A stretch of DNA of 59,252 nt from an uncultured Pelagibacteraceae bacterium (GTDB lineage: Bacteria; Pseudomonadota; Alphaproteobacteria; Pelagibacterales; Pelagibacteraceae), in the NCBI GenBank assembly GCA_902554335.1, contig CACDOD010000005.1, positions 1 through 59,252 on the forward strand. The letters are read 5' to 3'. A program made the translations under genes and the position numbers. Within the stretch, counting starts at the first letter, position 1. Every line of letters starts with the position of its first letter. Shown here one piece after another: positions 5,337-56,006 of this stretch. The notes below the pieces were generated by a model. It did not search any database. It was given only the letters and a program-made list of their open reading frames with translations, and had not been told where the DNA came from.

Positions 5337-6468
5337 TGAGTAATTTTAATGCAAACTCTAATTGGTTATCAGTGTCAGTATCAATTCTAAATTCATCTGA
5401 AGCTTCAGTTACAAAAATATCTGGACTAACACCAACCTCAGAAATCGAGTCCCCTGATGGTAGATAATACTTTGATACTGTTAATCTAATTGCTCCATTG
5501 TTTTTTAGAGGAATAATTGATTGAACTGATCCTTTACCATAAGAATTTTCTCCAAGTATGATTGCTCTTTTATGATCTTTTAAAGCACCCGCAACTATTT
5601 CAGATGCTGACGCAGAACCATAATTTATAAGGACTATCAAAGTATCTCCATTAATCAAATCACCTTTTTTTGCAAACCATTTGCGATTATCTGATTTTTT
5701 TTTACTTTTTGTAGAAACTATTTCACCATTATCTAAGAAAAAATCTGTAATTCTAATTGCTTGAGTTAAAAGTCCTCCAGGATTATTTCGTAAATCTAAA
5801 ATATATTTATTTATATTTTTATTTTTTTTGAAATCTTTAACGATGTCTTTAAGTTGATTTGAGCTGTTATCGTTAAAAGATGTTAATCTTACATATCCTA
5901 TATTATCCTTTAGTACTTTTGATTTAACTGATTTGATTTCAATGATATCGCGAATAATATTAAAAGTTAAAGCTTTTCTAACACCAATTCTTCTTACTGT
6001 AATTTCAATTTTGCTACCGACTGGACCTCTCATTAAGTCAACAGCTTCAGATAAAGTTTTTCCCTGAACTTGTGTTCCATCAATTTTAACAATGTAGTCA
6101 CCAGCCTTAACCCCAACTGCTTCTGCAGGAGAACCATCTATTGGAGAAATTACTTTTACCACTCCTGCTTCCATACCAACTTCAATACCTAAACCACCAA
6201 ACTCACCTTTAGTTTCTGTTTGCATTTCCTGAAGCATTTGAGGGGACATGTACGAGGAATATGGATCTAATGATTGTAATACTCCGTTAATTGCAGCATC
6301 CATCGCATCACTTTGATTTACATCATCTACATACTCTCTATTTATTTTTTGTAAGACTTCACTGAATATATCAATCTTTTCATAAATGTTCGGCTCGTTT
6401 GCTAATAAAATTTTGTAATCAAACAAAGTGAATATTAAAAAAAAAAATATAGATGTTATTTTTTTCAT
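5329..6468 (-). CDS. ctpA: Carboxyl-terminal processing protease, S41 family
   Basis: This 379-residue protein starts with a signal peptide (hydrophobic residues 3-22, cleavage near LLANEP), so it acts in the periplasm. A PDZ domain lies at about 85-165 (FGGLGIEVG, GSPAEAVGVKAGDYI). The S41 protease domain follows with the LDLRNNPGG segment, the serine motif NYGSASASE at about 282-290, and the lysine of the Ser/Lys dyad in YGKGSVQ at about 312. Family members trim C-termini of envelope proteins and degrade tagged proteins. The gene overlaps rsfS by four bases. In many relatives rlmH, gpmI and an envC-like gene lie between rsfS and ctpA; here they are absent. Confidence 0.95.
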   Translation of the reverse strand: MKKITSIFFFLIFTLFDYKILLANEPNIYEKIDIFSEVLQKINREYVDDVNQSDAMDAAINGVLQSLDPYSSYMSPQMLQEMQTETKGEFGGLGIEVGMEAGVVKVISPIDGSPAEAVGVKAGDYIVKIDGTQVQGKTLSEAVDLMRGPVGSKIEITVRRIGVRKALTFNIIRDIIEIKSVKSKVLKDNIGYVRLTSFNDNSSNQLKDIVKDFKKNKNINKYILDLRNNPGGLLTQAIRITDFFLDNGEIVSTKSKKKSDNRKWFAKKGDLINGDTLIVLINYGSASASEIVAGALKDHKRAIILGENSYGKGSVQSIIPLKNNGAIRLTVSKYYLPSGDSISEVGVSPDIFVTEASDEFRIDTDTDNQLEFALKLLNG

Positions 6469-6815
6469 ATTATCACTCTTTCTTTTGGAATTAACTCAGA
6501 CCACATTTTTTCTAGCTCATAAAATTTTCTTTTTTCAGGATTAAAAATGTGAATAACTAAATCTATACCATCCACTAACTTCCAATCTGTAGAGTCTTTT
6601 CCTTCAATTTTGCAATTGTTGATACCATTATTTTTTAACTCTTCATAAACTTGTTCTGATAGAGCTTGTATATGTCTGGATGATGTACCACTAGCAATTA
6701 TCATATAGTCAGCAATTGATGATTTACCTTCTAGATCTATAGAAATGATATTAAGAGCTTTATTGGAATCTAATTTTTTGATAATTTTATCTTTTAAGTC
6801 TAAAGATTTATACAT
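6465..6815 (-). CDS. rsfS: Ribosomal silencing factor RsfS
   Basis: The protein of about 116 residues matches RsfS (Iojap family), which binds ribosomal protein L14 and blocks joining of the subunits during starvation. Diagnostic segments are ADYMIIASGTSSRHIQALSE, EGKDSTDWKLVDG and DLVIHIF. The reading frame is open upstream to a TTG at 6836, but the ATG at 6815 gives the usual N-terminus (YKSLDLKDKIIKKL), so I chose the ATG, 18 bases after the nadD stop. It overlaps ctpA by four bases. The nadD-rsfS pairing is conserved widely in bacteria. Confidence 0.93.
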   Translation of the reverse strand: MYKSLDLKDKIIKKLDSNKALNIISIDLEGKSSIADYMIIASGTSSRHIQALSEQVYEELKNNGINNCKIEGKDSTDWKLVDGIDLVIHIFNPEKRKFYELEKMWSELIPKERVII

Positions 6816-6832
6816 TAAATATAAATACAGTA

Positions 6833-7357
6833 TCAAATTTTTCTTAATTGAGAAGATGAAATATTGACTTTTTTAAAATGAATAAATTTAAGTTTTTGTT
6901 TATCTATTTGTTTAAAAGCTAATGATTTCAAAGCTTTAGATTTATAAGGGTATCTATTAAAAACAATTATATTGCACATTTTGGAAATATCTTTCCATTT
7001 TTTCCATTTATGAAAAGTTACTAGATTATCAGCACCTAGGATTAAATATAATTCTGTATTTACAAGTTTCTTTTTTAAATAATTTATAAGATCATATGTT
7101 TTATTTGATTTAGTATATTTCTCAAAATAATTAACTTGAATAAATTTATATTTTTTAGTGAATTTTTTAGATGCTTTTATTCTTTCTTGAATTTTTGTAT
7201 TACTTATTTTTTTAAAAGGGTTTTTCCTAGTTATTGCCCAAATTATTTTTACTAATTTAAATTTTTTTTTTGCTTCTTTCGATATTTTTAAATGACCTAA
7301 ATGAGAAGGATCAAAAGTTCCACCCAGAATTCCAATTTTTTTTTTTTTTCTAATCAA
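6833..7357 (-). CDS. nadD: Nicotinate-nucleotide adenylyltransferase
   Basis: This 174-residue protein carries the adenylyltransferase signature GILGGTFDPSHLGHLKIS with the HxGH motif, and the LGADNL and ISSSQLR segments of NadD. It adenylates nicotinate mononucleotide to deamido-NAD in the cytoplasm. The apparent start is a TTG at 7357, one base after the proA stop. Codons 3-7 form an uninterrupted run of 14 A residues on the coding strand (T14 at 7336-7349), so length variation or slippage there would shift the frame immediately ahead of the catalytic motif. Confidence 0.93.
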   Translation of the reverse strand: MIRKKKKIGILGGTFDPSHLGHLKISKEAKKKFKLVKIIWAITRKNPFKKISNTKIQERIKASKKFTKKYKFIQVNYFEKYTKSNKTYDLINYLKKKLVNTELYLILGADNLVTFHKWKKWKDISKMCNIIVFNRYPYKSKALKSLAFKQIDKQKLKFIHFKKVNISSSQLRKI

Positions 7358-7358
7358 T

Positions 7359-8609
7359 TTATTTTCTTATTTGACCTTTACCGTAAACTTCATATTTATA
7401 ACTTACAAGTTGACCTAAGCCTACAGGCCCTCTTGGTGGTAAATTATTTGTTGATATACCAACCTCTGCTCCAAAGCCAAACTCTCCACCGTCAGCAAAT
7501 TGAGTAGAAGAATTATGAATTCCTATTGAGCTTTTGATATTTTTTAAAAAATAGTCTGCTGCTTTTTTATCATCCGTAATGATAGCATCAGTATGCATAG
7601 TTCCAAATTGATTAATATGTTTAACAGCCTCATTTAAATTTTTGACTACTTTTGCAGAGATGTTCGATGACAAGTATTCTGTAGACCAATTTTTGTTATT
7701 TGCTAATTTAGTTTTTCCGTCAAATATTTTTTTTATGGTTTTGTCCCCAAAAACATTACAACCTTTTTTTTTTAAATTTTTTAAAACAGGATTAATAAAT
7801 TTTTTAGCGATTCTTTCGTGAAATAATACTGTTTCAGTTGCTCCGCATATACTTGTGTTTCTCATTTTTGCATTTTCTAAAACCTTTATGGCCATTTTCA
7901 TTTTTGCTTTTTTATCTATAAAAGTATGACAAATTCCTTCTAAATGTCCTATGTATGGAACTGTAGATAATTCATCTACTTTTTTTACTAAAGATTTACC
8001 TCCCCTTGGAACTATTAAATCAATATAACCTTTCATTTTTGATAGTAATTTATCTACTATATTTCTATTTTTTGAGGAAATGAATTGAACATAGTTTTGA
8101 TCAACTCCACAATTTTTTAAAGATATTCTAAATAAATTTGAAATTATTTTATTAGTATTAAATGCTTCAGATCCACCTCTTAAAATAACAGAATTTCCTG
8201 ATTTAAAACAAAGACATGCAATATCTGAAGTTACATTTGGCCTACTCTCATATATTACAGCAATTACTCCAATTGGAACTGTAACTTTTTTTATAATTAG
8301 TCCATTTGGTCTTTTCCATTTTTCTAGAATTCTATTTGTTGGATCTTTTATTTTTATAATTTGATTTATTGATTTAATAATATAATTTATTTTCTTATCA
8401 TCTATCTCTAGTCTTTTAATTAAATTGTCTTTTATTTTTTTTTTTTTAGCAAATTTTATATCTTTATTATTTTCTTTTATAATTTTTTTTTTATTTTTTT
8501 GTAATAGGCTTGCAAATTTTTTTAATACTCTATTTTTTTCTATTGGATCAACTTTACTATCAAAAGCTACTCTAGATTTTCTTGTTATTTTTTGAAGATT
8601 TAATGTCAT
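7359..8609 (-). CDS. proA: Gamma-glutamyl phosphate reductase
   Basis: This 416-residue protein is the second enzyme of proline synthesis, reducing glutamyl-5-phosphate to the semialdehyde with NADPH. It shows VIYESRPNVTSDIACLC, KSGNSVILRGG, the active-site cysteine segment STSICGA-like (NTSICGATE), and GEFGFGAEVGIST near the C-terminus. It sits one base after proB, so the two are likely translated together. A T13 run (8435-8447) encodes consecutive lysines in the N-terminal region. Confidence 0.97.
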   Translation of the reverse strand: MTLNLQKITRKSRVAFDSKVDPIEKNRVLKKFASLLQKNKKKIIKENNKDIKFAKKKKIKDNLIKRLEIDDKKINYIIKSINQIIKIKDPTNRILEKWKRPNGLIIKKVTVPIGVIAVIYESRPNVTSDIACLCFKSGNSVILRGGSEAFNTNKIISNLFRISLKNCGVDQNYVQFISSKNRNIVDKLLSKMKGYIDLIVPRGGKSLVKKVDELSTVPYIGHLEGICHTFIDKKAKMKMAIKVLENAKMRNTSICGATETVLFHERIAKKFINPVLKNLKKKGCNVFGDKTIKKIFDGKTKLANNKNWSTEYLSSNISAKVVKNLNEAVKHINQFGTMHTDAIITDDKKAADYFLKNIKSSIGIHNSSTQFADGGEFGFGAEVGISTNNLPPRGPVGLGQLVSYKYEVYGKGQIRK

Positions 8610-8610
8610 A

Positions 8611-9717
8611 TCACATTTCTACCATATCATCTTTATGAATAACTTCAGACTTAGATACATATCCCAAAATTTCACTTATTTCACTTGAATGGTGACCTTT
8701 AATTCTTAAAATTTCTTCAGAGTTAAACGAACTAAGTCCTCTTGCATATTCATTCATATTCTTATCTAAAATTTTAATATGATCCCCTTTATTAAACTTA
8801 CCATTTATACTTTTAATTCCTGCAGCAAGAAGACTTTTACCCTTTTTTAAAGCTTGAATAGCGCCTTCGTCGATAATCAATTCTCCTTTTGGAGCAATTG
8901 AACTAATTATCCATTTTTTTCTAGCATCTAATTTCGAAACTTTTGGTAAAAACCAAGTACAGTTATTCTTTTCGATTATATTTTTTATAGGTCTATTTAT
9001 TAATCCATTTGCAATAGACATATAACAACCAGATATTTGACAGATTTTTGCAGCTTCTATTTTCGTCTTCATGCCGCCGGTTCCATGTTCACTAATATTT
9101 TTTGAAATATAGTTTTTTATATTACTGTTTATTTCTTTTACTTTGTTGATTAGTTTTGCATTTTTATTTATTTTTGGATTTTTATCAAACAAACCATCAA
9201 CATCTGATAACAGTATTAAACAATCTGAGCCTGAAATTTGAGCAACACGGGAAGCTAATCTGTCATTGTCACCATATTTTATTTCGGAGGTAGCGATACT
9301 ATCATTTTCATTAACCAAGGGTATAAACCCAAGATCAAATAAATTATCAAACGTACGTTTTGCATTTATTGCCCTTCTTCTTATTTCTGTATCTTCGAGT
9401 GTTAAAAGAATTTGAGAAAGGCTTAATTTTGATTTTTTAAACATTTCTTTAAAAAGATTCATAAGTTCAATTTGACCAATAGATGCAACAGCTTGACTTT
9501 TATCAATTTTTAAATTTTTTTTGTTGATATTAAGTTTTTTACATCCCAAGGCTATAGCACCAGAGCTAACAATAATTATTCTTTTTTTATCTTTAATTAA
9601 TTTTTTAATATCCTTTGCAAAATCTAATAACCACTTTTTCCTTACATTTTTTTTGTCATCAATTAATAGAGATGAACCAATTTTTATTACTATTTGTTTA
9701 GAGTTATTTAAATACAT
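8611..9717 (-). CDS. proB: Glutamate 5-kinase
   Basis: This 368-residue protein has the N-terminal amino acid kinase domain (VIKIGSSLL, IIVSSGAIALG, PLVNENDSIA, FGDNDRLA-like YGDNDRLASRVA) and a C-terminal PUA domain (about 275-360) as in the full-length enzyme. It phosphorylates glutamate and is the usual target of proline feedback inhibition. Its ATG overlaps the obgE stop by 14 bases and it leads directly into proA. Confidence 0.97.
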   Translation of the reverse strand: MYLNNSKQIVIKIGSSLLIDDKKNVRKKWLLDFAKDIKKLIKDKKRIIIVSSGAIALGCKKLNINKKNLKIDKSQAVASIGQIELMNLFKEMFKKSKLSLSQILLTLEDTEIRRRAINAKRTFDNLFDLGFIPLVNENDSIATSEIKYGDNDRLASRVAQISGSDCLILLSDVDGLFDKNPKINKNAKLINKVKEINSNIKNYISKNISEHGTGGMKTKIEAAKICQISGCYMSIANGLINRPIKNIIEKNNCTWFLPKVSKLDARKKWIISSIAPKGELIIDEGAIQALKKGKSLLAAGIKSINGKFNKGDHIKILDKNMNEYARGLSSFNSEEILRIKGHHSSEISEILGYVSKSEVIHKDDMVEM

Positions 9718-10690
9718 GTTTTAATAAGCTTGATTTAATTTTTGAAATTAGTTTTTTATCTGTATTAGACAATATACTAACCTTTTTCTTAATTTTTTTT
9801 TCAAAAAATTTTATTTTTTCTTTTAATTCATCTTTCTCAATTAAATCTATTTTATTAAATACAATAATCTCTGTTTTTTTAACTAAATCATTACTGTATT
9901 TTTTCAATTCATTTCTAATTTGTTTATAAGATATGACCAAGTCTTCTTCTGTGACATCTATCATATGTAATAAAATTTTACACCTTTCGATATGTTTAAG
10001 AAATTTGATTCCTAAGCCAATACCTTCATGTGCGCCTTCAATTAATCCAGGAATATCTGCTAATGTTATTTCTTTATCGTCATAAACAGCTACTCCTAAA
10101 TTTGGGTTTAGAGTGGTAAATTTATAGTTTGCAATTTTTGGATTTGCACTTGTTATATTAGAAAGAAGAGTTGACTTTCCTGCATTTGGTAAACCAATTA
10201 TTCCTATATCTGCAATTGTTTTCAACTGTAACCACATCCAAAACTCTTCACCTTTTGTACCTTTGGTAAATTTTCTTGGAGCCCTATTCGTTGAGGATTT
10301 AAATCTTGTATTTCCTAAACCACCCTTTCCGCCTATTGCAGCAACATACTCCTGATGTTCTTTTTTAAAATCAAATACTAATGTTTTATTATCTTCTTCA
10401 AAAACTTGTGTTCCTATGGGCACTTTTAAAAAAAGGTCTTTTCCACTTCGTCCAGTTCGATTTTGTCCTTTCCCATCCTCACCTCTTTTTGCCTTGAAAT
10501 GTTGTTGATATCTGTAATCAATAAGAGTGTTTAAATTTCTCTCTGATTTAAATATGACAGATCCACCCTTGCCACCATCTCCTCCGTCCGGTCCTCCAAA
10601 TTCTATAAATTTTTCTCGTCTAAAACTAGGAGAACCAGAGCCACCATTGCCTGCTTTAATAAATACCTTTACCTGATCTAGGAATTTCAT
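9704..10690 (-). CDS. obgE: Obg family GTPase
   Basis: This 328-residue protein has the glycine-rich Obg fold (FIKAGNGGSGSPSFRREKF, GGPDGGDGGKGG) over the first 155 residues, followed by a G domain with P-loop GLPNAGKST, DIPGLIEGAH and NKIDL. Obg proteins act in late 50S assembly and stress responses. The C-terminal extension found in some species is short here. It lies downstream of rplU and rpmA, the near-universal arrangement, which fits a role in large subunit assembly. Confidence 0.97.
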   Translation of the reverse strand: MKFLDQVKVFIKAGNGGSGSPSFRREKFIEFGGPDGGDGGKGGSVIFKSERNLNTLIDYRYQQHFKAKRGEDGKGQNRTGRSGKDLFLKVPIGTQVFEEDNKTLVFDFKKEHQEYVAAIGGKGGLGNTRFKSSTNRAPRKFTKGTKGEEFWMWLQLKTIADIGIIGLPNAGKSTLLSNITSANPKIANYKFTTLNPNLGVAVYDDKEITLADIPGLIEGAHEGIGLGIKFLKHIERCKILLHMIDVTEEDLVISYKQIRNELKKYSNDLVKKTEIIVFNKIDLIEKDELKEKIKFFEKKIKKKVSILSNTDKKLISKIKSSLLKHVFK

Positions 10691-23183: not shown

Positions 23184-24074
23184 TTATTTTAGTAAAAATT
23201 TATAAGATAGAATTTTATAAACTAGCTTTGCAACTAAGAAATTATAACTATTAAAACCCTTTATTGGTGCTAATTCATTAACATCAGCACCAACAATTCT
23301 TGAATTCTTGCATGCAATTTTTATAATTTCTAAAGCTTCATCCCAGAATATTCCACCTGGTTCTGGAGTGCCGGTTGCTGGCATAATACTCGAGTCCAAT
23401 CCGTCAACGTCGAAAGTAATATAAACATCTTTATTTTTAATTTGTTTCTTGAATTTATTTAAATCCCATTTTTTTTTATCTTTTGCCCAATAGATACTAA
23501 TTCTTTTTTTGTTTTTTTTTAAAATAAGGATTTCTTCAGCGGATATATTTCTGATTCCAAAAGAAACCACAGATACATTTTTGTGATCTACACACCTTTT
23601 TATTGCAGAGGCATGGGAAAATTTTTCACCATTATAACTTTCTCTTAAATCCGCATGTGCATCAAAATGTAAAAGTGTTAGTTTTTTATATTTTTTTACA
23701 AAAGGCTTTATACAACCTGGCGTAATAGAGTGTTCACCCCCAAGAGTAATAGGAAAAAGCTTCCTATCTATAATTTTTTTATTTATTTCACCTATTTGAT
23801 TTATTGCTTTGTCAATCCGTTTATTAATTTTAAAAGGTTTTAATGTTTTGATACCGATTTTTTTGAATGGTTCACATTTAAGTTCCTCATCATATAATTC
23901 AACTTGATGAGAAGCTTTTATTATTTCTTTTGGCCCATTTTTTGTACCGCTACCATAGCTTACAGTTTTTTCTAATCCAAAAGGGATTACAATTGCTTTT
24001 TCTTTAAAATTGAATCTATTATCAACTCCCAAAAAACCTTTTTTATTATCTAAATAATTCAATTTATTACCCAA
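23184..24074 (-). CDS. speB: Agmatinase/ureohydrolase family protein
   Basis: The protein of about 296 residues is a manganese ureohydrolase: LGGEHSITPG, HFDAHADLRE, KFSHASAIKRC and FDVDGLDSSIMPATGTPEPGG carry the metal-binding His and Asp residues. Agmatinase releases urea from agmatine to give putrescine; guanidino-polyamines are other possible substrates. The frame is open to an ATG at 24140, but that start would overlap the upstream gene by 74 bases and add unrelated residues, so a TTG at 24074 or 24062 is more likely. It is the third gene of the polyamine operon. Confidence 0.88.
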   Translation of the reverse strand: MGNKLNYLDNKKGFLGVDNRFNFKEKAIVIPFGLEKTVSYGSGTKNGPKEIIKASHQVELYDEELKCEPFKKIGIKTLKPFKINKRIDKAINQIGEINKKIIDRKLFPITLGGEHSITPGCIKPFVKKYKKLTLLHFDAHADLRESYNGEKFSHASAIKRCVDHKNVSVVSFGIRNISAEEILILKKNKKRISIYWAKDKKKWDLNKFKKQIKNKDVYITFDVDGLDSSIMPATGTPEPGGIFWDEALEIIKIACKNSRIVGADVNELAPIKGFNSYNFLVAKLVYKILSYKFLLK

Positions 24075-25110
24075 AAATTTTTGAAAAGTTCTTCCTTTCT
24101 CTTTTTTTCCATTCGGCCTTGTGATAAGCATCACTTGCAATTAGTGGAAGTACACTAGTTGCTTCTGCAAAAACCATTTGTTCTTTTGTAACATCTACCT
24201 TCCCCCAAGAGCTTGCTTCTTTCAGGGTAGAACTGCTACATGCTCCATCTCTTGAGTCTGCAACTGTAATTTGAACAGCATATTTATGCATATCAACATT
24301 TTTACCCAATAACTCAGCGCATATAACTGTATCCTGAATAAAATTTTTTGGAACACCTCCACCAATCATAAATAGACCCGAACCTTTTGATCTAATTTTA
24401 ATTTCTGTTAACTCTCTGAACTCTCTTATTGAGTCTATTGTTATATGTTTTTTAGGATTTCTTTCTTGGTGCATGACTAAACCAAACCCTGCACTAGAAT
24501 CTGTAAAGGCTGGACAAAATATTGGCACATTGTTATCGTAAGCAACCTCTATTAAAGAATCTTTTTTCTTTGCTTTTTTTTTTAAATACTCTCCCATTTC
24601 ATGGATAAATTCTCTAGATGTATAACTTCTAGGTTCTAAACTATCTGCTATTTCCCCAATTATCTTATCACACATCTGAAGCTCATCTTCATCAATATAC
24701 GTGTCATAAATTCTATCTATATAGTTATTCCTTAGTTCAGTATCATTTTGAAATTGTGAACCTTGATAATGTTTAAATCCCAATGCCTCAAAGAAATCCA
24801 TATCAATTATTGATGCTCCAGTAGCAACAATAGCATCTACCATATTATATTTAACCATATCTCTATAAACATGCATGCATCCAGCAGCCGATGTTGATCC
24901 AGCCAGTGTAAGAAAAATTGTACAATCTTGATCTTTTAACATTTCATTATAAATTTTAGCTGCATTTGCAGTTTCTCTAGAAACAAACGACATTTTTTCC
25001 ATTGAAGAAATAATATTTCTAGAGTCGAAAGATGTTATGTCAATATGTTCAATAGGTTTACTAAGAAATTCTTTTTTACTATTATGACCTGGATTTTTTT
25101 TTTCAGACAT
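24067..25110 (-). CDS. Deoxyhypusine synthase-like protein (polyamine aminobutyltransferase type)
   Basis: This 347-residue protein belongs to the deoxyhypusine synthase family: LTLAGSTSAAGCMHVYRDMV, DAIVATGASIIDMDFFEALG, FCPAFTDSSAGFGLV, IGGGVPKNFIQD and ASSWGKVD, where the lysine matches the catalytic lysine that forms the enzyme-butylimine intermediate. Bacteria have no eIF5A, so the acceptor must be a small amine; bacterial homologues are reported to make homospermidine-type or bis-guanidino polyamines. It starts directly after the decarboxylase stop and overlaps the agmatinase gene slightly. Family is firm, reaction is inferred. Confidence 0.88.
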   Translation of the reverse strand: MSEKKNPGHNSKKEFLSKPIEHIDITSFDSRNIISSMEKMSFVSRETANAAKIYNEMLKDQDCTIFLTLAGSTSAAGCMHVYRDMVKYNMVDAIVATGASIIDMDFFEALGFKHYQGSQFQNDTELRNNYIDRIYDTYIDEDELQMCDKIIGEIADSLEPRSYTSREFIHEMGEYLKKKAKKKDSLIEVAYDNNVPIFCPAFTDSSAGFGLVMHQERNPKKHITIDSIREFRELTEIKIRSKGSGLFMIGGGVPKNFIQDTVICAELLGKNVDMHKYAVQITVADSRDGACSSSTLKEASSWGKVDVTKEQMVFAEATSVLPLIASDAYHKAEWKKRERKNFSKIFG

Positions 25111-26289
25111 TTATGCAACAAGAAACTGACTTTTTGTCTCTTGATTATATAATGACATTATCGGGTTATCTTCAACTTCATATATTTCATCAGAGAAAAA
25201 ACCATTAAATTGGGTTCTAAATGTTAAACCATATGCTCCAAGTTGCCCTAACTCAATATAGTCATTTTCCTTAATATTGTTTGGAAGTAAAAAAGGTCCT
25301 TTCATATAATCCATGCTATCACAAGTTGGACCATAGAAATCAAATGATGTTAATTTTTTTGAAATTATCCTTCCATTAGTTATGAGTCTTGTAGGATAAA
25401 CAATGTTTGGAACTCCAGCATCAAAAAGAGATCCATAAGTTCCATCATTTATATAAAGTTTTTGTTTTTTTCTTAAAATTACTTTTACAATGGTAGAACC
25501 ACTCTCAGCGACAATAGCCCTTCCAGGTTCACATAAAATTTCTGGCATTTTCTCAAATCTAATTTTTTTCAAACTATTTTCTATTTCTTGAAAATAGCTT
25601 TCAATTGGTTGAGGTACTAAATCTGGATAAATAGTAGGGAACCCACCTCCTATATTAATATAATCTGGAACAATTTTAGTTCTTTTAATTATGCTTACAA
25701 TTACAGATATACCTTTTGAGTATGATATTGGGTGCATACACTGAGAACCAACATGGAAACTTAAACCAACTTTTTTTGAATTTTCTTTAGCTAATCTAAA
25801 TAGTCCCAATGCTTCAGATGTTAAGGCTCCAAATTTTTTAGACAAATCTATTTCTGCATGTTCGTTTGAAACAGCTACTCTAACAAACAGATTTAAATCT
25901 TTTGCATTATTTGTACTTTCTAATATTTTAATTAATTCTTCTTTTGTATCTAATGAAAAATCCTTCACTCCATATTTAAAATAAGCTTCTTTAATATTTT
26001 CTCTACTTTTAACCGTATGCATATAACTACAATGCAGGTTTGGGTCTAATTGTTTAATAGCTTTAATTTCTTCAATTGAAGCAACATCAAATTGTTTTAT
26101 TCCGCTTTGAATAATAGTTTTTAAAACTTCTTTATTTGGATTTGTTTTTACGGCATATAGTATTTTACCTGGAAATTTGTTTTGAAATAATTTTGATGCA
26201 ATTTGTATAGATTTTTTTCTTATACAATAAACTGGTTTATCGGGTTGTAGTTGACTAATTAATTCATCAACTGATTTAAATTTTTTCAT
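25111..26289 (-). CDS. Ornithine/lysine decarboxylase family (fold type III PLP)
   Basis: This 392-residue protein is an alanine racemase-fold PLP decarboxylase close to eukaryote-type ornithine decarboxylase. The PLP lysine is in ILYAVKTNPN at about residues 40-49; FHVGSQC, NIGGGFPT, CEPGRAIVAESG and the C-terminal GPTCDSMDYM (catalytic cysteine) follow. It probably makes putrescine from ornithine, or cadaverine from lysine. Arginine decarboxylases of this fold are much longer, so agmatine is not the expected product. GGGGAG lies about 7 bases before the ATG. The leader contains a terminator-like hairpin. Confidence 0.88.
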   Translation of the reverse strand: MKKFKSVDELISQLQPDKPVYCIRKKSIQIASKLFQNKFPGKILYAVKTNPNKEVLKTIIQSGIKQFDVASIEEIKAIKQLDPNLHCSYMHTVKSRENIKEAYFKYGVKDFSLDTKEELIKILESTNNAKDLNLFVRVAVSNEHAEIDLSKKFGALTSEALGLFRLAKENSKKVGLSFHVGSQCMHPISYSKGISVIVSIIKRTKIVPDYINIGGGFPTIYPDLVPQPIESYFQEIENSLKKIRFEKMPEILCEPGRAIVAESGSTIVKVILRKKQKLYINDGTYGSLFDAGVPNIVYPTRLITNGRIISKKLTSFDFYGPTCDSMDYMKGPFLLPNNIKENDYIELGQLGAYGLTFRTQFNGFFSDEIYEVEDNPIMSLYNQETKSQFLVA

Positions 26290-26313
26290 ATCTTGCTCCC
26301 CAAAAAAAATTTA

Positions 26314-47008: not shown

Positions 47009-47911
47009 TTAATTATTGTAATTTTTAATCCAATATTTTGCAATCTCCTCTCTTTTGCAAATCCAAACTTTATCTAAACTAGTAATATAATCTAAAAATC
47101 TTTTAAGAGATTGAATTCTTCCAGGTTTTCCAATTATCCTACAATGCAATCCAATTGACATCATTTTTGGATTTTTATTTCCTTCCTCGTATAATGTATC
47201 AAAACTATCCTTTAAATAATTAAAAAATTGATCACCAGAATTAAATCCTTGATTTGTTAAAAATCTCATATCATTATTATCCAGTGTATAAGGTATCATA
47301 AGTTGTTTTTTCTTACCTTTTATTTCCCAATATGGAAGATCGTCACTATATGTATCACTGCAATATAAAAAACTACCATTTTCAATTACAAGGTTTAAAG
47401 TATTTGGGCTACATCTACCAGTGTACCAACCGACAGGTCTTTTTCCAAAAATTTTTTTAATACTCATAATTGCTTTTTGCATATGTTTTTTTTCTACAGA
47501 CTTAGAAATATTTTGATAATCTATCCATCTCCAACCATGAGAAGCAATTTCATAGTTTGAGTTTTTCATTTCTTTACAAATTTCAAGATTTCTTTCTAAA
47601 GCCATACCAACGCCAAATATTGTTAAAGGAAGTTTATATTTTTTAAATAATTTATGTATTCTCCAAAAACCAGCCCTTGAACCATATTCATAAAGTGACT
47701 CCATATTTATATGTCTTCCCTTAATAGCTTTAGCACCAATTATTTCTGATAAAAAAATTTCAGAGGCCTTATCTCCATGTAAAACAGAGCTTTCTCCACC
47801 TTCTTCGTAATTTAATACAAATTGTACTGCAATTTTTGCATTATTTGGCCATTTAACTTTAGGAGAGTTTGAACCATACCCTAACATATTTCTTGGATAT
47901 TTATTTTTCAT
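47009..47911 (-). CDS. puuE: Allantoinase PuuE (polysaccharide deacetylase fold)
   Basis: This 300-residue protein matches PuuE, the cofactor-free allantoinase related to polysaccharide deacetylases: the N-terminus PRNMLGYGSNSPKVKWPN, VQFVLNYEEGGE, MESLYEYGSRAGFWRI, SHGWRWIDYQ and TGRCSPNT. It opens allantoin to allantoate. It is the last gene of a minus-strand string uraD-alc-allA-puuE in which each junction is a four-base ATGA-type overlap, so the proteins are probably made in step. Confidence 0.95.
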   Translation of the reverse strand: MKNKYPRNMLGYGSNSPKVKWPNNAKIAVQFVLNYEEGGESSVLHGDKASEIFLSEIIGAKAIKGRHINMESLYEYGSRAGFWRIHKLFKKYKLPLTIFGVGMALERNLEICKEMKNSNYEIASHGWRWIDYQNISKSVEKKHMQKAIMSIKKIFGKRPVGWYTGRCSPNTLNLVIENGSFLYCSDTYSDDLPYWEIKGKKKQLMIPYTLDNNDMRFLTNQGFNSGDQFFNYLKDSFDTLYEEGNKNPKMMSIGLHCRIIGKPGRIQSLKRFLDYITSLDKVWICKREEIAKYWIKNYNN

Positions 47912-48402
47912 TTTGAAAGATATATTTTTTCTTTTTTAAATTTATGAATTACTAAATTATTTCCTTTTCCTTTTCTATCAATCACTAAAAAATTCATATT
48001 TTTTGTTGATATAAGTGGAAAATGCCAAATTCCTCGATTTAAATTTATTCCTTTTTGTTTTGGTATTCTAAAGGATTCTATTTTTTTTAAATTTGGCACC
48101 TTGGCCTTTGGTGCCACAAAAACTAAGAACGAAGTCTCTTTCATAGGTACAAAAGCTTGACTTCCTAATGGATGCTTTTCCATCATGTCAATTTTCATTG
48201 GAAACCTTCTTTTTTTTGCAGAAAAAATACTTACAATAGTTCTACCTTTTTTTGATGCTGTGTCTATTTTTCCAAGATTGTCATATCTTTTTGCATACCC
48301 ATTATTAATTTTAAAATATTTTTTTTTACTTGTGTCAATAATTTGTCCGAATTTTTTGAAGTTTTTTTTACTTACTTTTTTGGGGTTTATTTTTATTTTC
48401 AT
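47908..48402 (-). CDS. allA: Ureidoglycolate lyase
   Basis: This 164-residue protein belongs to the AllA cupin family: KKFGQIID near the N-terminus, MEKHPLGSQAFVPM with metal-site residues, and the GIWHFPLIS motif. It splits ureidoglycolate into glyoxylate and urea. The protein is very lysine-rich. It lies between allantoicase and allantoinase genes, which supports the substrate. Confidence 0.93.
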   Translation of the reverse strand: MKIKINPKKVSKKNFKKFGQIIDTSKKKYFKINNGYAKRYDNLGKIDTASKKGRTIVSIFSAKKRRFPMKIDMMEKHPLGSQAFVPMKETSFLVFVAPKAKVPNLKKIESFRIPKQKGINLNRGIWHFPLISTKNMNFLVIDRKGKGNNLVIHKFKKEKIYLSK

Positions 48403-49385
48403 TTTACTACTTTACCGAAAGCCCTTATTCTAGAAATACCACCATCAGGAAAAATATTTATTTTTAAACAGTTAATTTTATTTTTTTTATTAATTTTACT
48501 TTTAAATAAGTGTTTTTTATGAGGTTTTAATTTTGTTTTTTCTAAAAAAGTTTTCCAATTCTTTGAATTTGCTAAAAGTTTGTTTGAATTAGTTTTATCT
48601 GCAATAAATGCCGATTGAACTGTAAGAGATTCCGGATAATTTCCTTTAAAATGGTGAGTATCAATTTCTAATCTATCTATAATCCCAGGTTTGCCAAATT
48701 TAATAATTATCCAGTCGAAATTTTTACCTCTGCTTCTTCTTGTCTCCCAACCATCACCCATATTAACTCCTGTTCCAGGGCTAAGAACGTTTTCAGCTTT
48801 GCCAAAATGCTCATTATTACAACCAACAATTGTAGATCCATTTATAATAGAGCTCAAATTTACATTTTTTCCGCTAAGATTAATTTTTTCTAAATCTACT
48901 ATTCCGTTAAGTCTTATTCTTGCAACTCCGCCATCAGGAAAAATATTCAACTTAATAAAATTAAATGTTGAGTGATTATTTATTTTAAAATTATGATTTC
49001 TATCTGGACCAAGTTTTTTTTTATTTAAGATAATTTTCCAAGTTGTTTTTTTTGTTGGATTTTTTTTTGATAAACATGCCTCCAATGATGCCAGAGAGGG
49101 TTGGTTTCCTGAAAAATAAGATGTATCGATATCTACATTAAATATTTTACCAGGCCTACCTAGTTTTATAATTAAAAAATCATGACCCTTTTTTCTCTTT
49201 CTTCTTGTCTCCCAACCGTCCATCCATTTACCATGTTTATCATAAACTCCTTCTTTGAAGACTGGTTTTGTTGAACTTAGAATTCTATTTGCAGCTCCAA
49301 AAAACTCATCAGTTTTATAAATAATTTTAGAGCCAAATTTTCTTTCTGCTAAATTAACAGTATTTTTAAGTTTCGTTTTTTTCAT
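48399..49385 (-). CDS. alc: Allantoicase
   Basis: This 328-residue protein consists of two tandem allantoicase repeats, each with a FGAANRIL/FGKAENVL start, a GWETRR motif (DGWETRRKR and DGWETRRSR), a DIDTSYFSGN/EIDTHHFKGN strand, and an FPDGGVARIR/FPDGGISRIR end. It converts allantoate to ureidoglycolate and urea. The near-perfect internal symmetry makes the call firm. It overlaps both neighbours by four bases. Confidence 0.96.
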   Translation of the reverse strand: MKKTKLKNTVNLAERKFGSKIIYKTDEFFGAANRILSSTKPVFKEGVYDKHGKWMDGWETRRKRKKGHDFLIIKLGRPGKIFNVDIDTSYFSGNQPSLASLEACLSKKNPTKKTTWKIILNKKKLGPDRNHNFKINNHSTFNFIKLNIFPDGGVARIRLNGIVDLEKINLSGKNVNLSSIINGSTIVGCNNEHFGKAENVLSPGTGVNMGDGWETRRSRGKNFDWIIIKFGKPGIIDRLEIDTHHFKGNYPESLTVQSAFIADKTNSNKLLANSKNWKTFLEKTKLKPHKKHLFKSKINKKNKINCLKINIFPDGGISRIRAFGKVVK

Positions 49386-49879
49386 TTTGTAAATATTTCA
49401 TTTAATCGGAATAGAGCAATTTTTTTAACTTGGCTTTTTGCTTCTTTGAATTCTAATTCTACATCATTATTAATTCTTTGTCTAAAATTATTTAATATCT
49501 CAATTTTGTCTTTTCCCTTAACAGCTATTATAAATGGAAAACCAAATTTTTTTTCATATTTAAAGTTAAGCATTTTAAACTCCTCATATTGTTCGTCTGT
49601 ACAGTTTTTGAGATTTGCACGAGATTGCTCTTCGCTAGAATATTTAGTCAAATTTTTTTCTACTGCTAATTTTGGATGTGACCTTAAAATATCTAAAACT
49701 TTATTTTTTTCTGTTGTCTCGTAGATGAGAAACATTTTATTTATTAAATCTTCTTTATCTTTGAATGGTTTATGTTCCAAAAGTTTTTCAGCAATCCATT
49801 GTGTTTTTTCAAAAATAACTCCAAACAAAGATATAAATTTATCTCTATTTAAATTATTAAGATCATTTTCTAAGCTCAT
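49382..49879 (-). CDS. uraD: OHCU decarboxylase
   Basis: This 165-residue helical protein matches UraD, which decarboxylates 2-oxo-4-hydroxy-4-carboxy-5-ureidoimidazoline to S-allantoin. It shows FEKTQWIAEKLL, LRSHPKLA with the catalytic histidine, the KYEKKFGFPFIIAVKGK signature, and NDVELEFKEAKSQVKKIALFRL. It is the first gene of the minus-strand ureide operon and faces uraH across a 65-base divergent spacer. Confidence 0.95.
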   Translation of the reverse strand: MSLENDLNNLNRDKFISLFGVIFEKTQWIAEKLLEHKPFKDKEDLINKMFLIYETTEKNKVLDILRSHPKLAVEKNLTKYSSEEQSRANLKNCTDEQYEEFKMLNFKYEKKFGFPFIIAVKGKDKIEILNNFRQRINNDVELEFKEAKSQVKKIALFRLNEIFTK

Positions 49880-49907
49880 AGTGGACGTTTATATAAGTTT
49901 TAATATA

Positions 49908-49943
49908 TTAATTATTGGTTTTTGTGTAATATACAATAATCAA
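49908..49943. promoter_or_regulatory. Inverted repeat in the uraD/uraH divergent spacer
   Basis: TTAATTATTG (49908-49917) and CAATAATCAA (49934-49943) are inverted repeats matching at nine of ten positions with a 16-base spacer, and the right arm ends one base before the uraH ATG. The location between both arms of the purine island suits an operator that governs the two operons. No regulator gene is found in the island, so its ligand is unknown. Confidence 0.3.
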
Positions 49944-49944
49944 T

Positions 49945-50295
49945 ATGACCAAATTAACTACACATGTTTTAGATATATATTCCGGAAAACCAGGAAAAGG
50001 AATAAAAGTTGATTTATTTTATATAAGTGGGAATGAAAAGACAAAATTGAACTCTATAGTTTTAAATTCTGATGGAAGATCAGATGGCCCTCTTATTGAA
50101 AAAGATAATTTTAAAAATGGAAAATACGAATTAGTTTTTTATATTGGGGATTATTTTAAAAGTATTCTTAAATCGGAAACTACTCCATTCCTAGATGATG
50201 TTATTATAAGATTTGGAATTTCAAAAAATAATGAGCACTATCATGTTCCATTGCTAGTATCTCCTTGGAGTTATTCAACATATAGAGGAAGCTGA
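49945..50295 (+). CDS. uraH: 5-hydroxyisourate hydrolase
   Basis: This 116-residue transthyretin-like protein has TTHVLDIYSGKPGKGI at the N-terminus, NSDGRSDGPLI, and the C-terminal YHVPLLVSPWSYSTYRGS, with the family-defining YRGS tetrapeptide at the end. It hydrolyses 5-hydroxyisourate to OHCU. No signal peptide is present. It is the first gene of the plus-strand operon uraH-xdhA-xdhB-guaD-puuD-phosphoribosyltransferase. Confidence 0.97.
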   Translation: MTKLTTHVLDIYSGKPGKGIKVDLFYISGNEKTKLNSIVLNSDGRSDGPLIEKDNFKNGKYELVFYIGDYFKSILKSETTPFLDDVIIRFGISKNNEHYHVPLLVSPWSYSTYRGS

Positions 50296-51728
50296 TGGTT
50301 TCCGATACAATTAAATTTTTATTTAATAATAAAATATTTAAAATAAAAAATCCTGATCCAAATAAAACAATTTTAAATTATATTAGAAACGATTTAAAAA
50401 TGACTGGTACGAAGGAAGGTTGCGCTGAAGGAGGGTGTGGTGCATGCACTATAGTATTAGGTGAGCTTAATAAAAATAAAATAGTTTATAAAGCTATAAA
50501 TGCTTGCATTAGTTTTTTACCAATTTTAAATGAAAAACAATTAATATTAATTGAAGATCTAAGTAATGGAAAAAGTCTTCATCCTGTTCAAGAGGCAATG
50601 ATTAAATTTCATGGTTCCCAATGTGGATTTTGTACACCTGGATTTACAATGTCCTTATTTTCAATGCATAAAAATAACAGATTGATTAATAATGAGATAG
50701 TTGAAGAAGCTTTATCAGGAAATTTATGTAGATGTACTGGCTATAGACCAATAATTGATGCTGCTAAAAGCTTGAATAATAAAAATTATCGCGATCAATT
50801 TAAAAAGGAACAAAACAAAACTATTAAATTATTAAAAAATATTAAAAGTACTGATATTGAAATTAATAATAAAGGTAAAAAATTTTTTGCACCAAAAACA
50901 ATTAGCAATTTAAAAAAATTATTAAATAAATATCCTGATGCGAAAATTCTAAGCGGAGGAACTGATCTTTCTCTTGAAGTAACAAAATTTAGAAAAGAAA
51001 TTAAAACAATAATTTCATTAAATTCTATCGAAAAATTAAATTTTATAAAAAAAAATAGAAATTTATTAGAAATAGGTGCCACAACTTCACTTTTTGAATT
51101 TCAAAACCTTATTAAAAATTATTTTTTAGATTTTCACGATATTTTAAAAAGATATGGGTCCCTTCAAATAAGAAATGTAGGCACAGTTGCAGGAAATATT
51201 GCAACAGCATCGCCCATTGGAGACGCACTACCTCTATTGCTGACACTTGATGCAAAAATAGTTGTTCAAGGAAAAAATCAAAAAAAAATTTTTTCTTTAA
51301 ATAAATTCTTTATTTCTTATAGAAAAACAAAACTGAAGAAAGGTGAATTTATATATTCAATAAAAATACCGATCAATAAAGATAATATTTTTAAAGCCTA
51401 TAAAATTTCAAAAAGGTTTGATGATGACATTTCTTCAGTTTGTGGGTCATTTAGTTTTTTAATTAAAAAAAATAAAATCGCAAAAGCTGCAATAGCTTAT
51501 GGTGGTATGTCTGCTATCCCTAAAAGAGCATCAGCAATTGAAAAAAAACTTATAAATTCAGAGTTCACTGAAAACTCATTTAGTAATGCTATTAATTTAA
51601 TAAATAAAGATTTTTCACCATTAAATGACATGCGGGCAAGCAGCGAGTATAGATTGGCTGTAGCTAAAAATTTATTATTAAAAGCTTTCTATGAAATAAA
51701 GAACAAACAAACAATAAGAATTAATTAA
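50295..51728 (+). CDS. xdhA: Xanthine dehydrogenase small subunit (2Fe-2S and FAD)
   Basis: This 477-residue protein has an N-terminal plant-type 2Fe-2S domain (GCAEGGCGACTIVLG), a second helical 2Fe-2S domain (QCGFCTPGFTMS and LSGNLCRCTGYRP), and a C-terminal FAD domain (ILSGGTDLSLEV, IRNVGTVAGNIATASPIGDA). With XdhB it oxidises hypoxanthine and xanthine to urate. The subunit split matches the bacterial XdhAB form. It shares one base with both uraH and xdhB at its ends. Confidence 0.96.
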   Translation: MVSDTIKFLFNNKIFKIKNPDPNKTILNYIRNDLKMTGTKEGCAEGGCGACTIVLGELNKNKIVYKAINACISFLPILNEKQLILIEDLSNGKSLHPVQEAMIKFHGSQCGFCTPGFTMSLFSMHKNNRLINNEIVEEALSGNLCRCTGYRPIIDAAKSLNNKNYRDQFKKEQNKTIKLLKNIKSTDIEINNKGKKFFAPKTISNLKKLLNKYPDAKILSGGTDLSLEVTKFRKEIKTIISLNSIEKLNFIKKNRNLLEIGATTSLFEFQNLIKNYFLDFHDILKRYGSLQIRNVGTVAGNIATASPIGDALPLLLTLDAKIVVQGKNQKKIFSLNKFFISYRKTKLKKGEFIYSIKIPINKDNIFKAYKISKRFDDDISSVCGSFSFLIKKNKIAKAAIAYGGMSAIPKRASAIEKKLINSEFTENSFSNAINLINKDFSPLNDMRASSEYRLAVAKNLLLKAFYEIKNKQTIRIN

Positions 51729-54046
51729 TGAGAAACGAGGAATTATTAAAAGGTCAAAGTATACCGCACGATAGCGCATCAAAGCATGTGTCTGGCTTTG
51801 CCCAATACACCGACGATATTGCCGAACCTGCTAATACTTTACATGGTGCAATTGGATGGAGTGAGAAAGCTCATGCCAAGATAAAAAAAATTGATTTGAG
51901 CAATGTAGAAAAAAGTGAAGGAGTAATATCTGTTGCAACCTTTAGAGATATTCCAGGTCGTAATGATGTAGGCCCAGTATTTGATGGGGATCCCATATTT
52001 CCAAAATCAAAAGTTGAATATTTCGGTCAACCATTGTTTGCGGTTGCAGCAACCACAACAGAACTTGCAAGGAAAGCAGTATTAAAAGCAAAAGTTGCCT
52101 ATAAAGAGCTAAAACCTGTGATAACAATTAAAGAGGCTTTAAAAAAAAATAACCTTCTTTTTAATCCAAGAATAATAAAAAAGGGAAATCCACAAAATAA
52201 AATTAATAAATCTAAAAATAAATTAAAAGGTAAATTTAATACCGGAAGCCAAGAGCATTTTTATTTGGAAGGACAAGTTTGTTTAGTAATTCCCCAAGAG
52301 GACAGTAATTTTCAAGTTTATAGTTCAACCCAACATCCTTCTGAAACACAGCAAATTATTGCAAAGATGCTAAAACAAAAAAGCAATTCAATAACTGTTA
52401 CAGTCAGAAGAATAGGTGGTGGATTTGGTGGTAAAGAAACAAATTTTATGACAGCAGCTATTTGTGCATTGTTGTCTCACAAAACTAAAAAACCAATTAA
52501 ACTTAGACTAGATAGAGATGATGATATTATATTAACAGGTAAACGGCACGATTTTTATTCTGAGTATGAAGTAGGATTTAATGATAACGGGAAAATTGAA
52601 GGATTAAAATTAAAACTTGCATCTAGGTGTGGAATGTCTCCTGATCTCTCATATGCGATTAATGAACGAGCATTATTACATATAGATAATGCATACTATT
52701 TATCGGATTTAGAAGTTAAAAATTATTTATGTAAAACCAACACATCATCCTCAACAGCATTTAGGGGGTTTGGGGGCAATCAAGGCATGATGGCAATAGA
52801 AAATATTATAGATAATATTTCACGATTTTTAAAAAAAGACCCAAGTGATGTTAGAAAAGAAAATTTTTACGGTCAAAACGAAAATAATGTTACTCACTAT
52901 GGAATGAAAATTAATGATAACGTAATTCATGATATTTTTAAAAGTCTGTTAGATAAATCCAATTATAAAAAAAGATACAATCAAATTAAAAATTTTAATA
53001 TTAAAAATAAATTTAAAAAAAAGGGTATAGCTTTAACTCCAGTCAAATTTGGAATTTCTTTTACAACAATTCACTTGAATCAAGCTGGCGCATTAGTGCA
53101 CATATATACTGATGGAAGTATACACCTCAATCATGGAGGTATCGAAATGGGGCAGGGTACACACACAAAAATAGCCCAACTTGTTGCAAATACATTTGGA
53201 CTGCCATTTGAAAAAGTACAAATATCCTCAACAAATACCTCCAAAGTTCCTAACACATCAGCTAGCGCAGCGTCATCAACAACAGATTTAAATGGAGCAG
53301 CAACATTAAATGCTACAGACAAAATTAAAACTAATCTAAATAATTTTATAAAAAAAAAATATAATATTTTATCTAAAATTGAACCTGTATATAGAAATGA
53401 AAATATTTATATCGGTAATAGAACTTTCAGTTTTAAAAAAATTATTCAAGAGGCCTATTTAAATAGAATTTCACTATCCTCATCTGGTTTTTACTCAACC
53501 CCAAAAATAAACTTTGATAAGCAGAAATTTAACGGGAGGCCATTTTATTACTTTTGTTATGGTGCAGCTGTAACCGAAGTAACAATAGATACACTTACTG
53601 GAGAAAATAAAGTAGACAGAGTTGATATAATTCATGATGCAGGCAATACCATTAATCCAGCCCTTGAACTTGGACAGATAGAGGGTGGATTTGTTCAAGG
53701 ACAAGGATGGCTTACTATGGAAGAAGTGGTTTGGGATAAATACGGAAAATTAAGAACTTATTCACCATCTACTTATAAAATTCCAGCCGTAACAGATACT
53801 CCAGATGAATTTAATGTAGAAATTTTTAAAAGAGGTTCCAATGTTGAAAATGTCGTTAATAAACAAAAAACTACAGGAGAACCTCCATTGATGCTTGCTA
53901 TGAGTGTTTTCTTTGCAATTAAAGATGCAATATCATCTATTTCAAACTACAAAAAAATACCTGAACTTGATGCACCTGCAACTCCTGAAAAAATATTAAT
54001 GAGTATTAACAAATTAAAAACAAAAATTAAATCTAATGGAAAATAA
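51728..54046 (+). CDS. xdhB: Xanthine dehydrogenase large subunit (molybdopterin)
   Basis: This 772-residue protein is the molybdenum-binding subunit: SGFAQYTDDI at the N-terminus, RRIGGGFGGKETN, NQAGALVHIYTDGS with the glutamate-position neighbourhood HLNHGGIEMGQGTH, the substrate arginine in TAFRGFGGNQG, and the catalytic glutamate in TGEPPLMLAMS. These residues point to purines rather than aldehydes or CO. The XdhC insertion factor gene usually beside it is absent from the window. It overlaps guaD by eleven bases. Confidence 0.96.
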   Translation: MRNEELLKGQSIPHDSASKHVSGFAQYTDDIAEPANTLHGAIGWSEKAHAKIKKIDLSNVEKSEGVISVATFRDIPGRNDVGPVFDGDPIFPKSKVEYFGQPLFAVAATTTELARKAVLKAKVAYKELKPVITIKEALKKNNLLFNPRIIKKGNPQNKINKSKNKLKGKFNTGSQEHFYLEGQVCLVIPQEDSNFQVYSSTQHPSETQQIIAKMLKQKSNSITVTVRRIGGGFGGKETNFMTAAICALLSHKTKKPIKLRLDRDDDIILTGKRHDFYSEYEVGFNDNGKIEGLKLKLASRCGMSPDLSYAINERALLHIDNAYYLSDLEVKNYLCKTNTSSSTAFRGFGGNQGMMAIENIIDNISRFLKKDPSDVRKENFYGQNENNVTHYGMKINDNVIHDIFKSLLDKSNYKKRYNQIKNFNIKNKFKKKGIALTPVKFGISFTTIHLNQAGALVHIYTDGSIHLNHGGIEMGQGTHTKIAQLVANTFGLPFEKVQISSTNTSKVPNTSASAASSTTDLNGAATLNATDKIKTNLNNFIKKKYNILSKIEPVYRNENIYIGNRTFSFKKIIQEAYLNRISLSSSGFYSTPKINFDKQKFNGRPFYYFCYGAAVTEVTIDTLTGENKVDRVDIIHDAGNTINPALELGQIEGGFVQGQGWLTMEEVVWDKYGKLRTYSPSTYKIPAVTDTPDEFNVEIFKRGSNVENVVNKQKTTGEPPLMLAMSVFFAIKDAISSISNYKKIPELDAPATPEKILMSINKLKTKIKSNGK

Positions 54047-54506
54047 ATCAAAATTTATGTTAAGAGCGATAGAGCTATCAATTCAGAGTGCAAAAGCAAG
54101 CGGAGGACCTTTTGGTTGCGTAATTGTCAAAAATAATAAAATTATTGCTGAAGGATTTAATCAAGTAACGTCTAATAATGATCCAACTGCTCATGCAGAA
54201 ATTGTAGCTATAAGAAATGCATGTCAAAATCAAAATAATTTCTTCCTAAAAGAATGTGATCTTTATTCTACATGTGAACCATGTCCAATGTGTCTTTCTG
54301 CAATTTACTGGGCACATATTGAAAATATTTATTACGCAAATACAAGATTGGATGCGAAGAATATTGATTTTGATGATTCTTTCATTTACTCAGAAATTAA
54401 TAAAAAAATAAATTCTAGAAAAATAAAAATGTATCAAATGCATCGAGATGAAGCTTTGGAAGCATTTAAAATCTGGGATAAGAAAAAAGACAAAATTAAA
54501 TATTAA
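54036..54506 (+). CDS. guaD: Guanine deaminase (cytidine deaminase fold)
   Basis: This 156-residue protein is a zinc deaminase with the metal and catalytic motifs TAHAEIVAIRNAC and STCEPCPMCLSAIYWA, and the C-terminal DDSFIYSEI segment seen in GuaD rather than in tRNA adenosine deaminases. It converts guanine to xanthine, feeding XdhAB, which agrees with its position. A TadA-like role is less likely given the context. Confidence 0.9.
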   Translation: MENKSKFMLRAIELSIQSAKASGGPFGCVIVKNNKIIAEGFNQVTSNNDPTAHAEIVAIRNACQNQNNFFLKECDLYSTCEPCPMCLSAIYWAHIENIYYANTRLDAKNIDFDDSFIYSEINKKINSRKIKMYQMHRDEALEAFKIWDKKKDKIKY

Positions 54507-55418: not shown

Positions 55419-55428
55419 TCTTTTTTAA

Positions 55429-55953: not shown

Positions 55954-55981
55954 AAAAGGCGATCTAAAAAGACCGCCTTTT
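55954..55981. terminator. Bidirectional intrinsic terminator
   Basis: AAAAGGCG (55954-55961) pairs with CGCCTTTT (55974-55981), with one A.C mismatch and an inner TCT/AGA stem closing an AAAA loop. It is followed by T residues on both strands, better on the minus strand (TTTTTTA). It separates the convergent purine operon and the permease gene. It is one of only two clear hairpin ends at convergent junctions in the window. Confidence 0.88.
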
Positions 55982-56006
55982 AAAAAATTTAAATTATCTC
56001 TGCAAT

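Follow-up and report, generated by a model that had tools for sequence, protein, structure and literature searches.

Results

We analysed a stretch of 59,252 nucleotides (hereafter, the window: positions 1 to 59,252 of contig CACDOD010000005.1, assembly GCA_902554335.1) from an uncultured SAR11 bacterium of the Pelagibacteraceae. Three minus-strand genes in it (26289-23184) encode, in order, a decarboxylase of the ornithine decarboxylase (ODC) family, a protein resembling deoxyhypusine synthase (DHS) and bearing the motif SWGK, and an agmatinase-family protein. We propose that this trio would form an arginine-to-homospermidine operon in which coupling precedes trimming and the route runs through caldomycin, a reading to which we assign a probability of roughly 0.57. 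Caldomycin is doubly guanidinylated homospermidine. The decarboxylase would convert arginine to agmatine, the DHS-like enzyme would join two agmatines into caldomycin, perhaps by the imine step that has been proposed in print by analogy with human DHS, and the ureohydrolase would release both guanidino groups as urea to leave homospermidine. The first of these activities has been shown for an orthologue of the decarboxylase (PMC9992855), and the last for a ureohydrolase of Thermus (PMC10981699). The gene cluster and its first enzyme are already known in print; what appears new, judging from sequence, is a caldomycin step in SAR11.

A conserved three-gene locus

A first-pass annotation of the window had described this adjacency, and its coordinates and family calls proved right when checked against open frames and Pfam. 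The first gene (25111..26289, 392 aa) encodes a pyridoxal phosphate (PLP)-dependent decarboxylase of the alanine-racemase fold, an 'ODC homologue' whose most likely function is that of an agmatine-making arginine decarboxylase, ADC (PF02784, Orn_Arg_deC_N, 7e-36; PF00278, Orn_DAP_Arg_deC, 1.1e-7). It is preceded by a GGGGAG ribosome-binding-like site on the same strand (26296..26301, read directly from the sequence), and its TAA stop abuts the ATG of the DHS-like gene (24067..25110, 347 aa; PF01916, DS, deoxyhypusine synthase, 1.5e-98). The third gene (23184..24062; PF00491, Arginase, 2.8e-61; TIGR01230) follows after about 4 bases, so that the two gaps are 0 and about 4 bases. Its longest frame starts at TTG 24140, inside the DHS-like gene. 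The most likely start, as far as sequence comparison can tell, is TTG 24062, 4 bases past the DHS-like stop, which gives a protein of 292 aa. Two observations favour this choice. In a smaller locus set, 9 of 13 orthologues are 291 aa long; and among 57 orthologous loci, 56 have TTG (at -8 to +5) as the first start-type codon between -10 and +24 of the upstream stop. Such a conserved weak start might set the ratio of the enzymes.

A genome scan for the DHS-like gene kept the 80 best of 560 relatives, every one from the Pelagibacteraceae, with up to 6 kb on each side. Guanidine-removing genes follow the DHS-like gene in all 80 loci; the decarboxylase precedes it in 79 and is truncated by a contig end in the remaining one. 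The arrangement is therefore real, conserved and more than a chance one. The nearest named loci to the window are from uncultured Pelagibacteraceae isolates, and the first-pass annotation had guessed the group of the organism correctly.

The DHS-like protein matches the model for caldomycin synthase

The DHS-like protein scores 581.6 bits on NF002699, the equivalog model for caldomycin synthase (CdmS), which is 81.6 above the cut-off of 500. It falls below the cut-offs of the DHS model TIGR00321 (234.2 vs 304.25) and of NF001980 (189.7 vs 450), the SpeY-type model named 'homospermidine biosynthesis protein', in which we presume, from the model's name, that Anabaena SpeY belongs. Its DHS fold is recognizable by sequence (6e-30 match to solved structures).

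The residues named for CdmS of Thermus, mostly from a docking model, are Ser67, Glu136, Asp143, Phe204, Leu286, Glu293 and Lys299, of which Ser67, Glu136 and Asp143 are assigned to guanidino binding (PMC10981699). At a constant offset of 4 (numbering without Met), the window protein has Ser71, Glu140, Asp147, Phe208, Cys290, Glu297 and Lys303. We compared 104 aligned homologues: 80 from Pelagibacteraceae, the 21 rows of alignment A1 (window included) and three plasmid sequences; 23 of them were checked and lie over the NF002699 cut-off, and the rest are close homologues by tblastn. Ser, Glu, Asp and Phe at CdmS positions 67, 136, 143 and 204 are present in 104/104. At the position of Leu286 the 102 alphaproteobacterial rows carry Cys, the two cyanobacterial plasmid rows Leu. 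The counterparts of Glu293 and Lys299 are invariant (80/80 Pelagibacteraceae, 21/21 A1 rows, 3/3 plasmid sequences), as are the tryptophan and lysine of SWGK, whose lysine the first-pass annotation had rightly picked out as kept (104/104).

Four of these positions are informative. A distant homologue (L081) keeps one of them and a haloarchaeal plasmid DHS (L165) none, with Ala/Glu/Glu and Asn/Ser/Glu, respectively, at positions 67/136/143. In human DHS the four read Asn, Asn, Glu and Asp243, and Asp316 stands opposite the cysteine of the window. Both human acidic substrate residues, Asp243 and Asp316, are thus replaced in the window (Phe and Cys). They are likewise lost from L081 (Leu/Leu) and the haloarchaeal DHS (Asn/Leu), so that loss of the acids alone proves nothing; nor do Glu293 and Lys299 discriminate, since both proteins keep them. 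The first-pass annotation had named loss of NAD-binding residues as a sign against amine coupling, and on this the alignment is mixed. Asp203, Gly249-251 and Asp287 (aligned to human 238, 282-284 and 313) are kept in 104/104, and the positions of human Glu137 (Met in 102, Gln in 2) and His288 (Asn in 104) have changed; these human residues contact NAD or substrate.

A PF01287 search for eIF5A/aIF5A gave no match in six family genomes; the same search matched three archaeal controls and missed the known aIF5A of Haloferax volcanii, and is thus not fully sensitive. This absence implies that the enzyme should act on a free amine, as the first-pass annotation had argued. Taken together, the model scores and pocket residues make it most likely a caldomycin synthase-type, agmatine-coupling enzyme.

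The decarboxylase is most likely arginine-specific

The window decarboxylase is 77% identical to its orthologue in Ca. P. ubique SCGC AAA797-I19 (locus L137), where the DHS-like protein and the ureohydrolase are 90% and 81% identical to those of the window. The 'ODC' of this strain and that of Fonsibacter were reported to decarboxylate L-arginine, with undetectable activity on ornithine and lysine (PMC9992855). In our decarboxylase tree, which took in 50 of 62 rows, the window protein joins the assayed P. ubique ADC in a clade of 7 rows (support 100/99), a long way from the ODC-like proteins that CdmS-negative alphaproteobacteria carry. The specificity helix of CdmS-linked decarboxylases, window included, reads NDGxYGxLFDA (LFDG in one), and the letters LFDA/LYDA also occur in three genomes where no CdmS was found. 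The other alphaproteobacterial group has letters such as DIGKFGGLAET instead, from which we take its members to be ODCs.

The first-pass annotation had read the decarboxylase type as pointing to putrescine, and had suggested looking elsewhere in the genome for a biosynthetic arginine decarboxylase. A PF02784 profile search of the six family genomes found two proteins in each, one being the operon protein; the second passes the LysA equivalog in both genomes scanned for it (G000 and G012), and PF01276 and PF01862 gave no match in the six. The genome of the window is 70% complete, and G012 is a single contig at 100% completeness. Across these six genomes, with the LysA call made on two, the operon decarboxylase is the only ADC or ODC candidate seen. 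Because the orthologue is arginine-specific in print, the window protein lies in its clade and the sole other candidate is LysA where scanned, the enzyme is most likely an ODC-derived arginine decarboxylase with agmatine as the predicted feedstock. The putrescine argument then falls, and the substrate of the agmatinase, which had been called unexplained, is no longer a puzzle.

Two guanidine-removing modules exchange at the third position

The operon ureohydrolase passes TIGR01230 (199.5 vs 174.3) and misses PRK02190 (120.7 vs 302), on which the L137 protein scores 116. A ureohydrolase occupies the third position in 57 of the 80 loci, and among these the arginase-family motifs GGEHS, DAHAD and DVDGLD, which hold metal ligands, occur in 57, 56 and 46; the window has all three. 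In 21 of the 80 loci the place is taken by genes resembling N-carbamoylputrescine amidohydrolase (NCPAH) and agmatine deiminase (AIH), and two more have the NCPAH-like gene alone with the contig ending soon after, which brings this form to 23/80. No stretch among the 80 holds both modules. In the proposed route the NCPAH-like and, where the contig reaches, AIH-like genes of these 23 loci should do the same trimming in two steps. A PF04371 deiminase is found genome-wide in 7/7 genomes with the NCPAH/AIH form and 0/4 with the ureohydrolase form; in G004, the one SAR11 genome scanned with the equivalog models, AIH and NCPAH lie below the cut-offs (236 vs 382 and 296 vs 410). In a tree made by a quick method from concatenated decarboxylase and DHS-like sequences (81 rows, window included), the modules changed places 7 times by parsimony and at least 4 times by starred branches. 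That two unrelated guanidine-removing modules exchange at a single spot suggests that guanidine removal is the job of the third position.

A second, full-length ureohydrolase (over 300 bits) is encoded in 14 of the 20 CdmS-positive genomes of the genus, and the window's own genome has, at a contig end, a fragment 91% identical to it. The second ureohydrolase of G012 passes PRK02190 (316 vs 302), so that plain agmatine hydrolysis looks already covered. A third agmatinase-family type, with about 215 bits on PF00491, lies in another neighbourhood in some genomes of the same genus (L044, 6425-7408; L052, 3168-4151); the L044 protein is below both agmatinase cut-offs.

Distribution beyond the locus

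Of 41 relatives, 19 pass NF002699 and another carries fragments; these 20 CdmS-positive genomes all lie among the 25 of the window's genus (its own included). In the sister family it is passed in none of 16 genomes. Across Pseudomonadota, 29 of 397 genomes (own included) are over the cut-off, 27 of them outside the family. A PF04371 deiminase is present in 27/27 of the CdmS-positive alphaproteobacteria outside the family vs 7/20 of CdmS-negative ones (Fisher p 5.5e-7, ignoring shared ancestry), the latter being the first 20 listed of 360 and hence non-random. Ureohydrolases have no such association (10/28 CdmS-positive vs 16/20 CdmS-negative, one of the 16 below cut-off). The complete co-occurrence indicates that the partner outside SAR11 is the deiminase, and the decarboxylase beside CdmS-type genes is likely an ADC there too. 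In a tree, 29 deiminase sequences fell into three clades: 5 sequences group as SAR11-like (G103 included), 6 look canonical, and the 18 of the third clade come mostly from genomes with CdmS.

In two genomes without a CdmS match, genes like carboxynorspermidine synthase and decarboxylase lie near an ADC-type decarboxylase (L236 of G064, 5558-8087; L237 of G127, 7702-10601), both below their equivalog cut-offs. The second pathway step looks exchangeable too in these two.

Among plasmid records, close homologues of the DHS-like protein occur in one Sphingomonas and four Nostocaceae records, and none was found from Thermus. Those of Trichormus variabilis plasmid A (L162, NC_007410.1, 7998-9041; 592 bits on NF002699) and of a Nostoc edaphicum plasmid (L164, 4998-6041) are 55-56% identical and stand directly after rocD (ornithine aminotransferase), in a region with TonB-receptor and iron-transport genes; 49 kb of NC_007410.1 inspected for the second match in that record showed no feature of the kind. 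No relative was found among 50,697 phage records at E 1e-5.

Coupling first or trimming first

The main competitor to our reading reverses the order: either the ureohydrolase or a deiminase and amidohydrolase together would first trim agmatine to putrescine, and the DHS-like enzyme would then couple two putrescines to homospermidine. We regard this as doubtful yet a serious contender. It is the order stated for Pelagibacter and Fonsibacter (PMC9992855) and the one proposed for Zymomonas with the same gene types (PMC8594446), and a review describes Anabaena SpeY as making homospermidine from putrescine (PMC10385936). The two genomes without a CdmS match, with the same decarboxylase type near carboxynorspermidine-type genes and a deiminase elsewhere, fit a shared putrescine pool, but they fit shared agmatine as well. 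What speaks against putrescine coupling is that the window protein matches the NF002699 type, named for agmatine coupling and distinct from the NF001980 type, that neither putrescine nor spermidine was used by the Thermus enzyme (PMC10981699), and that most CdmS-positive genomes of the genus have the second ureohydrolase. The enzyme type, its residues and this second ureohydrolase thus favour coupling first. Of the products that the first-pass annotation had allowed for, the guanidino form trimmed by the ureohydrolase is therefore the one that the evidence favours, and putrescine coupling stands as the published alternative. A far less probable arrangement is that the operon mainly feeds spermidine, with a fusion of S-adenosylmethionine decarboxylase (AdoMetDC) and aminopropyltransferase aminopropylating agmatine, the ureohydrolase trimming aminopropylagmatine and the DHS-like enzyme on a side branch. 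Such a fusion is present elsewhere in the window's own genome, Pelagibacter fusions yield spermidine in E. coli (PMC11107197), and the caldomycin-trimming enzyme of Thermus bears the name aminopropylagmatine ureohydrolase (PMC10981699). The DHS-like gene does sit mid-locus everywhere, which counts little against a side branch because the scan was for that gene; and Pelagibacter is not named among the agmatine-using enzymes in the literature section consulted. Protein modification by the DHS-like enzyme, the role of true DHS, seems hardly credible: the fold, the catalytic lysine and the imperfect sensitivity of the eIF5A search would allow it, but none of the six genomes searched gave an eIF5A, the scores lie below the DHS equivalog cut-offs and guanidine-removing genes accompany the enzyme in every locus.

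Several points weigh against coupling through caldomycin. We found no report in the literature of the activity of a SAR11 DHS-like enzyme, and PMC9992855 names the same gene homospermidine synthase and states that in bacteria SpeY forms homospermidine out of putrescine. Kinship to Thermus CdmS rests on residue numbers from one paper and on an NCBI model whose scope may exceed this reaction; Ser67, Glu136, Asp143 and Glu293 owe their putative roles to docking, not to mutants, and CdmS Leu286 is Cys in the window. A deiminase clade dedicated to caldomycin was considered and rejected, as the third clade also holds G064, G115 and G127, which have no CdmS match. Because that one clade is common to these three genomes, the deiminase clades do not decide the order of steps. 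Homospermidine is low in the SAR11 strains measured (PMC8437039), though our route ends there too. The further claim that SAR11 makes caldomycin, whether as a required intermediate or even as an end product that is stored, and that the deiminase acts on it where the ureohydrolase gene was exchanged, we hold tentatively, at slightly worse than even odds; no literature report of deiminase activity on caldomycin was found.

The SAR11 polyamine puzzle

A study from 2021 judged the SAR11 DHS-like gene, dys2, not to be mainly a homospermidine synthase because homospermidine was low, and neither caldomycin nor N1-aminobutylagmatine is in its compound table (PMC8437039). A caldomycin step in SAR11 could bear on this, but since the route ends in homospermidine, it explains the low level only given low flux or incomplete trimming. 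If dys2 does couple agmatine, one would search for caldomycin at m/z 244 and for N1-aminobutylagmatine at m/z 202. Caldomycin and related terms led, in the literature searched, to the Thermus paper only, with no mention of SAR11 (PMC10981699). More generally, an arginine-based pathway can lie behind genes that alphaproteobacterial genomes label 'ornithine decarboxylase' and 'deoxyhypusine synthase'.

Elsewhere in the window (47009-57290) lies a purine/urate breakdown cluster with xanthine dehydrogenase-like subunits, urate oxidase, 5-hydroxyisourate hydrolase (HIUase), 2-oxo-4-hydroxy-4-carboxy-5-ureidoimidazoline (OHCU) decarboxylase, allantoicase, ureidoglycolate lyase, a polysaccharide-deacetylase-family protein and a xanthine/uracil-family permease. 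Urea would be a product of allantoicase, as of the ureohydrolase. According to PMC8437039, both SAR11 strains studied there lack urease.

Comparison with known systems

PMC9992855 depicts clusters of ODC/ADC, DHS/SpeY and agmatinase (or AIH/NCPAH) in Ca. Pelagibacter ubique and Ca. Fonsibacter ubiquis. These are the same genes in the same kind of cluster as in the window, and L137 comes from the assayed strain. That paper treats the DHS-like protein as a homospermidine synthase, with no assay of it told, and the word 'guanidino' is absent from its main text (PMC9992855). Zymomonas mobilis likewise has a decarboxylase and a DHS-like gene in one predicted operon (ZMO1020-ZMO1019), deiminase and amidase genes in its genome (ZMO1369/ZMO1370) and homospermidine as its main polyamine; it differs in that the trimming genes are in another operon, and in its proposed route the DHS-like enzyme is taken to couple putrescine (PMC8594446). 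Transfer of agmatine followed by trimming has a parallel in the DHS - agmatinase-like - aIF5A cluster of Haloferax volcanii, where DHS is thought to transfer agmatine before an agmatinase-like trimmer acts, but the acceptor there is a protein, aIF5A (PMC5178350), and the haloarchaeal plasmid DHS (L165) is without the four CdmS pocket residues.

A functional counterpart would be Thermus thermophilus, in which CdmS (TTHA1570) joins two agmatines into caldomycin and the ureohydrolase TtSpeBap converts this to homospermidine (PMC10981699). Like CdmS, the window protein passes the NCBI model, keeps the named substrate residues and is accompanied by an agmatine maker and a ureohydrolase; unlike CdmS, it has Cys for Leu286. 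Unlike Thermus, SAR11 keeps the three genes together with an ODC-derived ADC, and a deiminase/amidohydrolase pair replaces the ureohydrolase in over a quarter of its loci (23/80).

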